The position numbers were made by a program, and so were the translations under genes. From the NCBI GenBank assembly GCA_002779065.1, contig PEXL01000016.1:1-32436 (forward strand): DNA of 32,436 nucleotides. The letters run 5' to 3'. Origin of the DNA: Candidatus Diapherotrites archaeon CG08_land_8_20_14_0_20_34_12 (GTDB lineage Archaea; Iainarchaeota; Iainarchaeia; Iainarchaeales; 0-14-0-20-34-12). The notes beneath the pieces were generated by a model. The model saw nothing but the letters and a program-made list of their open reading frames with translations. It was not told the DNA's origin and ran no database searches. Positions within the stretch are counted from its first letter, which is position 1; every line of letters begins with the position of its first letter. This document shows positions 364 through 28,172 of this stretch, piece by piece.

Positions 364-531
364 TTACAAGAATCTCTTTATTGCTATTACTATTATTATG
401 AATGCAATGCACAACCCCACAATAAGATATGGGCTTAATTTAGGGCCTGCTACTTCTGCATCAAAGAATCTCATTATGCCAATTTCACTAGTTGGGCTTG
501 AAACCCTATTTCCTCTGTTCAATTTCACCAA
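364..531 (-). CDS. Preprotein translocase subunit Sec61beta (archaeal SecG), 55 aa, missed by the ORF track
   Basis: Minus-strand translation MVKLNRGNRVSSPTSEIGIMRFFDAEVAGPKLSPYLIVGLCIAFIIIVIAIKRFL*. GIMRFFD...GPKLSP plus a single C-terminal TM helix is the Sec61beta signature. TTG start with a GGTG ribosome-binding site 5 nt upstream. Confidence 0.82.
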   Translation of the reverse strand: MVKLNRGNRVSSPTSEIGIMRFFDAEVAGPKLSPYLIVGLCIAFIIIVIAIKRFL

Positions 532-552
532 TTTATCACCATTTATAGGATA

Positions 553-896
553 TAGTAAAAAACATTAATTTTTGAATTTATTTGGTCTTTTACTACCACT
601 TAAAGCAATGCTTTAAGGGTACAATTAAATCCTTTTGGATTTAATTTGTATCTAGTAAGAGACAATTTTGCTCAATTATTTGGATCTCTTACTATAATTA
701 ACTATTTATACACCAATTATTATAAATGTTTATATTGCCGCCTTTTCTTTCTTTTTGCTAAAAAGAAAGAACCAAGTAAACCAAAGTTTACTGGTCCAAT
801 AAAATTCCTTGGGAATTTTATTTGGAAATGTAGGTTGCAATTAAAATCCAAAAACGGATTTTAATGCACAATAAAACCGTTAGGTTTTATTTGTGC
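553..896. repeat. Dense array of consecutive inverted repeats/hairpins (about 9) in intergenic DNA
   Basis: Arms read directly: 553-560/588-595; 599-606/610-617; 620-632/637-650; 653-662/685-694; 745-756/760-771; 772-781/786-794; 796-808/812-825; 836-849/856-868; 866-878/883-896. Confidence 0.85.
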
Positions 897-927
897 CAAA
901 AGAAAGAAAAGAATAAGGTGTAAATAA

Positions 928-2979: not shown

Positions 2980-3053
2980 CCGAATAGAGTGTAAACACTC
3001 AACAAGGTTTCTTGAAACAAACAAAAATACGTCTTAAATTGGAGGTGTACACA

Positions 3054-3356
3054 ATGGCAGAAGAAAGTACAGCAATGGCTGAAAGAAGTGCAGATAACAC
3101 AATATATGTAGGTAAAAAAGATACAATGGCTTATGTGTTAGCGGTTGTAACCCAGATGAATCAAGGTATGAACGAGGTAGTAATTAAAGCTAGGGGAAAA
3201 GCAATCAGCCGAGCAGTAGATGTTGCTGAGATTGTGAAGAATAAATTCTCAACCGATGCAAGAATCGAATCAATTATTACCAGCACTGAAGAAGTGGAAT
3301 CAGACGAAGGTAAATCAGTAAAGGTATCAGCAATTGAGATAAGGGTTGTAAAGTAA
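3054..3356 (+). CDS. alba: DNA/RNA-binding protein Alba
   Basis: [52 protein letters not shown]...IEIRVV is typical Alba. ATG at 3054 is preceded by GGAGGTG; the upstream ATG at 3012 in the track is unlikely. Confidence 0.95.
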
Positions 3357-7410: not shown

Positions 7411-7482
7411 GGGCCTGTGGTCTATTGGTGTGATGTCGCTTTCACAGAGCGAAGATAAGCGGTTCGATTCCGCTCAGGCCCA
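7411..7482 (+). tRNA. tRNA-Val(CAC)
   Basis: Acceptor GGGCCTG/CAGGCCC, anticodon arm TCGCT-TTCACAG-AGCGA (anticodon CAC at 7443-7445), T arm AGCGG-TTCGATT-CCGCT; discriminator A, CCA not encoded. Confidence 0.95.
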
Positions 7483-7491
7483 TTTCGCCTT

Positions 7492-7515
7492 TCTTTTTCT
7501 TTGCAAAGAAAAAGA
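7492..7515. repeat. 24-bp perfect palindrome TCTTTTTCTTTGCAAAGAAAAAGA downstream of the tRNA
   Basis: Direct reading; related in composition to 745-771 and 21451-21498. Confidence 0.8.
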
Positions 7516-7557
7516 GAAAATAGTTAACCTTTAATTAAGTTAATTGCTACTATTTTT

Positions 7558-19084: not shown

Positions 19085-20281
19085 ATGGATTTCCGAAAAA
19101 TTAAAGGATTGCAAATCTGCCAAACAAAGCAGATACAAAGGGTTGAGGGCGGTTATATTGTCCCAAGCCAAAACTCAAATAAAAAATACTTTGTAGATGA
19201 GCATGAATATGATTGTACTTGCCCAGACTATAAAGAAAGGCAATGCACATGCAAGCATGCTTATGCTGTAAGGTATTACCTGCATATTGAGAAAGAAACC
19301 TCACAGGGAACGCAAACAGAGAAGCTATCCTTAACCCATAAGCAGGCATGGCACGCTTATAACCAAGCACAGAACAATGAAGTAATGCAATTTGATATTC
19401 TTCTTAAAGACTTGGTTGAAAGAATTGAAGAACCAGAACAAAGATTTGGCAGACCAAGACTAAGTCTAAAAGAACAAATATTCTGTTCAACGCAGAAGGT
19501 TTATTCCCAATTATCAAGCAGAAGGGCATACTCTTTATTCAAGAATGCACAGGCAAAGGAACAGATAGAAAAAGCCCCTAATTACAATGCAATAAACAAG
19601 CTATTGAACAGGGAAGATATTACTCCTATTTTGCACGAATTAATTTCCTTATCTGCCTTTCCATTAAAAGTAGTTGAGGAAACATTCGCCATTGATTCAA
19701 GCGGATTTAGGACAACAAGCTTTAACGACTATTGCAGGGAAAAGCACGACATAAAGAAAGAGCATGAATGGGTTAAGGTTCATATCCTCTGCGGAACAAA
19801 AACTAATGTAATATGCTCTGCCGAAATCACAGAGGAGAATGCAAGCGATTGCAGGCAGTTTATTCCATTGGCAGATAAAGCCTCAAAATCTGGTTTTAAT
19901 ATTAAGGAACTATGTGCTGACAAGGCTTATTCTTCAAGGGATAATATTGACTTTATTGATGATTTGGGCGGAACAGCATATATTCCTTTTAAAAGTAATT
20001 CCACAGGAAGAAGTAGAGGTTCTTTGCTTTGGCATAAAATGTTCCATTATTTCAAATATAGGAAAGAGGATTTTTTGGCTCACTATCACAGGAGAAGCAA
20101 TGTAGAAAGCACGTTCAACATGATAAAAGCCAAATTCGGCGACAAGATAAAGAGCAAGAACAAGACAGCACGAGTTAATGAAATGCTTTGCAAAATTCTG
20201 GCTCATAATATTGTGGTTTTGATACATGAATTTTATGAGCTTGGAATTAGCCCTGATTTAGTGTTTGGGAAGAAGGGATAA
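19085..20281 (+). CDS. Transposase with N-terminal SWIM zinc finger and DDE domain
   Basis: CTCPDYKERQCTCKHAYAVRYY (SWIM CxCxnCxH); FAIDSSGF, LCADKAYSSRDN, HYHRRSNVESTFNMIKAKFGD (DDE core). Confidence 0.88.
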   Translation: MDFRKIKGLQICQTKQIQRVEGGYIVPSQNSNKKYFVDEHEYDCTCPDYKERQCTCKHAYAVRYYLHIEKETSQGTQTEKLSLTHKQAWHAYNQAQNNEVMQFDILLKDLVERIEEPEQRFGRPRLSLKEQIFCSTQKVYSQLSSRRAYSLFKNAQAKEQIEKAPNYNAINKLLNREDITPILHELISLSAFPLKVVEETFAIDSSGFRTTSFNDYCREKHDIKKEHEWVKVHILCGTKTNVICSAEITEENASDCRQFIPLADKASKSGFNIKELCADKAYSSRDNIDFIDDLGGTAYIPFKSNSTGRSRGSLLWHKMFHYFKYRKEDFLAHYHRRSNVESTFNMIKAKFGDKIKSKNKTARVNEMLCKILAHNIVVLIHEFYELGISPDLVFGKKG

Positions 20282-21402: not shown

Positions 21403-21450
21403 CCTTCCACTCCCAACAAACAAATGTCCCTTCCTCCTTTGCCTTAACCC

Positions 21451-21498
21451 CTTTTCTTTTTCTTCAATATGTTCTTAATATCAAAAGAAAAAGAAAAG
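21451..21498. repeat. Large inverted repeat CTTTTCTTTTTCTT...AAGAAAAAGAAAAG
   Basis: 14-bp perfect arms 21451-21464 and 21485-21498. Confidence 0.75.
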
Positions 21499-21624
21499 CT
21501 AGTTGCACCAAAAGAAAAAGAAACTAATTGAATAAGTTGCGCAAAAAAGAAAGAAAACTACTTTTGAAAATTTGAGTATTGCAGCCTTACGTCAAGAAGA
21601 AAGAAATAAAATAAAAATAAGAAA

Positions 21625-26912: not shown

Positions 26913-28172
<1,260 letters not shown>

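Follow-up and report, generated by a model that had tools for sequence, protein, structure and literature searches.

The relevance of intramolecular triplexes in living cells has long been debated, usually on the strength of over-representation alone. The RNA triple helices of MALAT1 and the PAN ENE join two U-rich tracts with one A-rich tract and occur at the 3' ends of eukaryotic and viral RNAs. In bacteria, repeats with the potential for an intrastrand triplex are known as PIT/BoxC/TM-ECO (Hoyne and Maher; Holder et al. 2015, PMC4666352). They represent a dispersed class II motif whose function is unknown, and PMC4666352 gives the permitted loop lengths as 1-6 nt under ITxF and 0-10 nt according to Hoyne et al. 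PMC7218506 cites mobile double-hairpin elements from Allomyces mitochondria as well as GC-rich palindromes on the flanks of mitochondrial tRNA genes in Neurospora (Yin et al. 1981). Here, we describe repeats, termed element B, whose nearest known kind is the bacterial PIT/BoxC triplex repeats. On balance, they probably form an order-wide archaeal family of selection-maintained intrastrand triplexes, with three tracts co-varying in more than 100 copies that border tRNA, RNase P RNA and protein genes; their role would be that of a gene-border device or of mobile DNA recognised through its triplex.

The window, that is, the whole stretch of 32,436 nt analysed here, is contig C35 of a draft genome of 940 kb that is about 75% complete; the genomes compared with it are drafts as well, and sequence was read around the matched sites. 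Sec61 beta (PF03911; secG, about 364-531, minus strand) and Alba (3012-3356), together with an archaeal RNase P RNA in the same genome, identify the window as archaeal. Just beyond secG, positions 3-350 encode the C-terminal part of a TnpB (PF07282), truncated by the contig start, which is an IS605/IS607-type element or its remnant. We also noticed a DDE transposase (PF01609) at 19085-20281 with an N-terminal Cys/His-rich, SWIM-like stretch recognised by eye, and an adenylosuccinate synthase at 26913-28172 that was likely acquired by horizontal transfer, its nearest 80 relatives among GTDB genomes being mostly bacterial.

The original prediction described positions 553-896, between secG and gene 928, as a single array of about nine hairpins in which structure is conserved. 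Every hairpin that it named was found and its count was right, comprising five bulged hairpins (620-650, 772-794, 796-825, 836-868 and 867-895, the last two overlapping by two bases) as well as H1 (553-595), 596-619, H2 (653-694) and a Y/R hairpin (743-771). The single bulge claimed for each of the five is present: in three hairpins it is a 3'-side T, in the other two a 5'-side A. Positions 540-930 (391 nt) fold at -113.1 kcal/mol, compared with -65.7 ± 4.9 kcal/mol in 100 dinucleotide shuffles (z = -9.6), none of which reached this stability. The hairpins are thus real, with the correction that 695-737 is a surviving piece of the original promoter spacer that contains no hairpin and lies outside all repeat matches.

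Further copies, which the original prediction had proposed to look for, are numerous: BLAST of 541-927 against its own genome gave 76 matches, and the left (about 550-696) and right (about 738-917) parts recur at different sites. The supposed single array therefore comprises two independent elements, A (553-694) and B (741-911), that recur separately, and B runs past the proposed array end at 896 because the purine tract at 898-911 is also part of the unit. In relatives, secG and the gene-928 orthologue are also divergent, separated by about 85-130 nt where starts are cleanly readable, a range that excludes seven relatives whose start call failed and three whose calls were inconsistent; no array was found in the 17 relatives' spacers inspected. 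The spacer of the window measures about 390 nt and, after removal of 553-694 and 741-914, about 75 nt, a length similar to that in relatives. Because the spacer is short and array-free in relatives, the array is an insertion into a conserved short promoter rather than a conserved leader. Judged from these comparisons, the hairpin stretch is two non-coding dispersed repeats that landed in the divergent promoter of secG (Sec61 beta) and gene 928, and of the three readings originally offered, a nest of small palindromic elements was the right one.

Element A (553-694, plus strand) is a double hairpin, H1 and H2, whose halves enclose a second, nested double hairpin, as delimited by separate genomic copies and covariation. 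At least 12 copies are present in its own genome, with separate copies on contigs C41, C37, C16, C17, C38, C13, C32, C5 and others. The inner double-hairpin module (596-650, plus strand; hairpins 596-619 and 620-650, CCACTTAAAGC..GCTTTAAGGG and TACAATTAAATCC..GGATTTAATTTGTA) is optional, being carried by copies L005, L010, L011 and L023 and missing from L015, L020, L022 and L024. Minimal copies (L015, L020, L024) consist of H1 and H2 only, TAGTAAAAGAC..GTCTTTTACTA and TAGTAAGAGAC..GTCTCTTACTA, and the terminal sequences, inspected for terminal inverted repeats, are TAGTAAAAGAC / GTCTCTTACTA. Across 22 stems, both sides changed in 7 of 11 pairs (23 cells), as against 0 of 500 shuffles and far lower values in slid controls. 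TA stands on both sides of the window copy and flanks most others (no empty site is available at base resolution), and may represent a target duplication or part of the palindrome. Copies L011 and L023 carry an additional hairpin pair within a loop, in opposite orientations, and L024 (2243-2345) differs from other copies in the inverted loop of its second hairpin; this loop and the inner module of L011 versus L023 are consistent with inversion between palindrome arms. One arm of a further copy holds an extra insert (L019 1373-1470) with inverted ends CAGCGTGTTGAAT..ATTCAACACGCTG and an apparent 2-base (GA) duplication, apparently a third small mobile family.

Element B is modular. Constant across its copies is an A/T-rich core, consisting of a pyrimidine tract (Y), a loop of 2-6 nt, a purine tract (R1), a linker (e.g., TGTAGGTTGCC or TGTAAGTTGCCC) and a further purine tract (R2), with stems of 9-17 nt and a second loop usually of 10-15 nt, longer where modules are present. 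The long form in the window (741-911, plus strand throughout), delimited by full-length copies and covariance-model matches, begins with CC at 741-742 and Y at 743-756 (TTTTCTTTCTTTTT), followed by R1, the Watson-Crick partner of Y, at 760-771 (AAAAAGAAAGAA). Between R1 and the linker lies double-hairpin module b1b2 (772-825), missing in L007, L008 and L009; the linker (826-838, AAATGTAGGTTGC) is conserved with and without modules, and between it and R2 lies module b3b4 (836-895), missing in L012, L013, L016 and L018. R2, the proposed third strand (898-911, AAAAGAAAGAAAAG), is the same-direction complement of Y at 13 of 14 positions. The bulged hairpins that the original prediction had recognised within B are these two modules, and the double-hairpin pairs of both A and B are present or missing as a unit. 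In module b3b4, compared across six genomes, seven pairs show changes on both sides (0 of 500 shuffles), and the claim of conserved structure is thereby borne out by compensatory changes in both element families. In a relative (G001), module b3b4 was found alone within a different hairpin (L046 1490-1560), which argues that it spreads independently of core B.

Core B is dispersed. Full-length copies of the element at 86% occur on contigs C31 and C45, with partial copies elsewhere in the same genome, and the covariance model of the core, whose E-values are rough, gave 54 full-length matches there plus shorter ones, or about 55-60 copies. The window itself holds a second core with three purine tracts (21449-21560, plus strand; match C35:21449-21523, E 1.2e-6) and a degenerate one, a Y/R1 hairpin without R2 (7487-7516, plus strand), a few bases past tRNA-Val (7411-7482). 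Some cores (21449-21560, L050 and L042) contain between three and five purine tracts in a row, and the linker preceding each tract has CC or GC at its end.

The relation among the three tracts follows a single rule. R2 complements Y base by base without a change of direction and is thus the mirror image of R1, not a repeat of it (e.g., in L208 and L211, Y TTTTTTCTTTCTCTTT, R1 AAAGAGAAAGAAAAAA and R2 AAAAAAGAAAGAGAAA); likewise, the ends of B are related as a mirror and not as an inverted repeat. Many copies are uninformative because the commonest Y tract is itself mirror-symmetric (TTTTCTTTCTTTT). In a first set of 58 cores, 29 could distinguish mirror from direct repeat, of which 26 were perfect mirrors and 3 perfect direct repeats, and the own-copy score was 381 against 261 ± 10 with Y tracts swapped. 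All 25 cores at later loci were perfect mirrors, although this set, fetched with the covariance model and partly overlapping the first, is not fully unbiased since the model favours canonical R2 sequences. After pooling and de-duplication, the pyrimidine-purine-purine order of class II, with R2 mirroring R1, held exactly in 109 of 118 distinct cores, and among 49 informative cores the perfect mirror fitted 44 and the perfect direct repeat 8. The pooled own score was 618 against 417 ± 12.6 (maximum 462 in 5,000 Y-tract swaps), figures that overstate independence and are not strict probabilities because the copies are related. These 49 cores contain 38 different Y sequences, each tracked by R2, and the stem continues past a C.T mismatch, where pairs also co-vary. 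To our knowledge, DNA copying yields direct or inverted repeats and never mirror repeats; with 38 Y sequences agreeing three ways, this points to selection for a three-stranded structure.

The hairpin base is where R2 begins, and from there R2 runs antiparallel to R1, the geometry required of a purine third strand; the stems of core B exceed the minimum of 8 triplets of the PIT/ITxF class II motif. Y and R1 would pair as a hairpin, with R2, antiparallel to R1, acting as the reverse-Hoogsteen third strand of a class II purine-motif triplex, and the complementary strand, Y2-linker-Y1-loop-R, would present a pyrimidine-motif arrangement. The added double hairpins sit in the R1-R2 connector, where they would leave the triplex intact. 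From sequence alone, we infer that core B forms a triplex in DNA rather than RNA; DNA is favoured because both transcript orientations occur and because, according to PMC4666352, RNA does not form purine-motif triplexes. A switch based on competition between R1 and R2 for Y was rejected, as it needs a direct repeat, which only 8 of 49 cores fit.

We show that core B is associated with RNA-gene borders. When an exact Y/R1 pattern was selected regardless of neighbours, it matched in 13 of the 81 genomes of the order, and its mirrored control in none of the 81; when contexts were read, about 16 of 21 fetched sites proved to be tRNA ends, tRNA introns or RNase P RNA. Of the 54 full-length cores in the genome of the window, 15 have one of the 24 tRNAs within 10 nt (binomial P = 1.5e-36), and core B stands beside 16 of 23 tRNAs checked, with tRNA finding missing some intron-bearing genes. 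On the 3' side of a tRNA the core is on the same strand and on the 5' side on the opposite strand, so that the Y end always points toward the tRNA, 0-10 nt from the mature RNA. More copies lie in tRNA introns, and three introns (L013 1302-1440, L035 2204-2345 and L307) were seen to hold two cores each, their Y ends facing both exons. The RNase P RNA of this archaeon (L002 1124-1495) contains a core in the region following CCCUCC, with which it retains a match to RF00373 (120 bits); another core lies immediately beyond its 3' end. Directly past stop codons, cores were recognised by eye at L007, L008, L311 and L312. The window copy of B is exceptional in that it lies in a promoter and touches no gene. 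This tRNA association, like the R2 purine tract that completes the triple-helix design, had been overlooked in the original prediction. We also noticed AGAGTAGATTTCCGCTGAACC conserved directly 5' of core B at about five loci (L324, L325, L313, L318 on C12, C37 and C18, and L025), mostly downstream of a TATA-like box; it may be a small RNA gene, or else a promoter shared by these loci from which core B would be transcribed.

The core B model matched in 61 of the 81 genomes of the order, with 0-66 copies each and counts that are very uneven within genera (e.g., 5, 7, 5, 0 and 2 in genus g18), and 12 genomes from other orders of the same class gave a single marginal match (E 0.0066) and none that was convincing. 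Uneven copy number, together with insertion in RNase P RNA and in a short promoter, favours mobility, and we infer that B is most likely a non-autonomous mobile element whose recognised form would be the folded single strand. Neither an autonomous copy, nor a transposase tied to B, nor an established target-site duplication was found. Y1 (HUH) transposase counts did not correlate with core B counts (Spearman 0.11, p = 0.32), and 14 of 25 genomes with at least 10 cores have no such transposase; a REP/RAYT reading was rejected for lack of this correlation. Viral carriage was also set aside, IMG/VR containing no exact canonical core in a search with one sequence variant. RNA-gene borders, and points directly following a stop codon, would suit such an element, as the insert would either be cut out during RNA maturation (by RNase P, RNase Z or the splicing endonuclease) or cause little harm.

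The other explanations differ in how far they can accommodate these observations. A structured leader or a single multi-hairpin ncRNA of gene 928, both raised in the original prediction, would account for the strong fold just 5' of the gene-928 start codon, but is hardly credible and was rejected: the array is missing upstream of orthologues, its two halves occur separately at dozens of unrelated sites, and no Rfam 15 family matched the hairpin stretch at gathering score. It is also improbable, if less so, that B represents ordinary MITE- or REP-like palindromes whose mirror relation arose by accident, through shared descent and the symmetry of an ancestral tract (TTTTCTTTCTTTT). Dispersed palindromic repeats are common in prokaryotes, and the symmetry of the commonest Y tract leaves many copies uninformative, but R2 follows each of the 38 informative Y sequences, the direct repeat fits few cores and the swap test lies far outside its null, so that the mirror and swap counts largely refute this reading.

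The exact abutment of B to tRNA ends, intron borders and stop codons could instead reflect a host function. An RNA element in tRNA and RNase P precursors, which would mark or protect processing borders or end transcription in its U-rich tract, would explain why the Y end always faces a nearby mature RNA, why most tRNAs checked carry a core and why several copies begin directly past a stop codon, and the minus strand has the U-rich/U-rich/A-rich order of RNA triple helices such as MALAT1 and the PAN ENE. We nevertheless consider it unlikely, since a transcription-ending copy would kill the genes that hold it internally (tRNA introns and RNase P RNA, on which ground a terminator was rejected), both transcript orientations occur although only one can form an RNA triplex, and several tRNAs and whole genomes lack core B. 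Slightly less likely again is a host DNA-structure element, a triplex-prone boundary or fork barrier at tRNA genes kept by selection and not by mobility. High occupancy of tRNA borders, the presence of both orientations and the arrest of polymerases by purine-motif triplexes (PMC4666352) speak for it; very uneven copy number between close relatives, insertions in the promoter spacer and RNase P RNA, and nested modules that appear accreted speak against it. Overall, the sequences lead us to favour, with somewhat better than even confidence, the view that what core B conserves is the capacity of a single DNA strand to adopt an intramolecular triplex fold, in an element that is most likely mobile and prefers gene borders.

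Like PIT/BoxC/TM-ECO, element B is dispersed and intergenic, follows the order Y - loop - R - loop - R(mirror), offers a class II triplex with one strand and a pyrimidine-motif triplex with its complement, and differs greatly in number among close relatives. In contrast to those repeats, B is archaeal and A/T-rich, varies widely in sequence without losing the mirror rule, lies directly against tRNA genes, introns and RNase P RNA, and carries double-hairpin modules. Against the PIT/ITxF loop limits, its first loop spans 2-6 nt and its second, usually 10-15 nt or longer, lies beyond them, and the G/C-rich 37-nt BoxC/TM-ECO consensus (CCCTCNCCC...GGGNGAGGG) is not matched by the A/T-rich core. 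Being beyond published loop limits and consensus, and differing in host, composition, variability, niche and modules, core B is not a BoxC member. The modules of A and B resemble the mitochondrial double-hairpin elements in being short, optional between relatives and nested, but reside on an archaeal chromosome; the likeness is one of architecture alone, with no homology claimed. The Neurospora palindromes share with B the flanking of tRNA genes by palindromic repeats. REP/BIME sequences with their RAYT (Y1) transposases resemble A and B as imperfect dispersed palindromes in modular arrays, whereas B lacks the Y1 correlation and its mirror tract has no REP counterpart. We know of no mirror third strand in the Neurospora palindromes. 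The minus strand of B shares the tract order of MALAT1 and the PAN ENE, but B uses both strand orientations. In the open-access literature, we found no such repeats at DPANN tRNA genes.

Element B offers comparative evidence of the type that proved RNA helices, with three tracts changing together over many copies. It further provides many natural sequences, along with natural controls in the form of rule-breaking copies, for physical and cellular tests. Finally, B suggests an unusual niche for small selfish DNA, namely the edges of RNA genes at which processing takes place.
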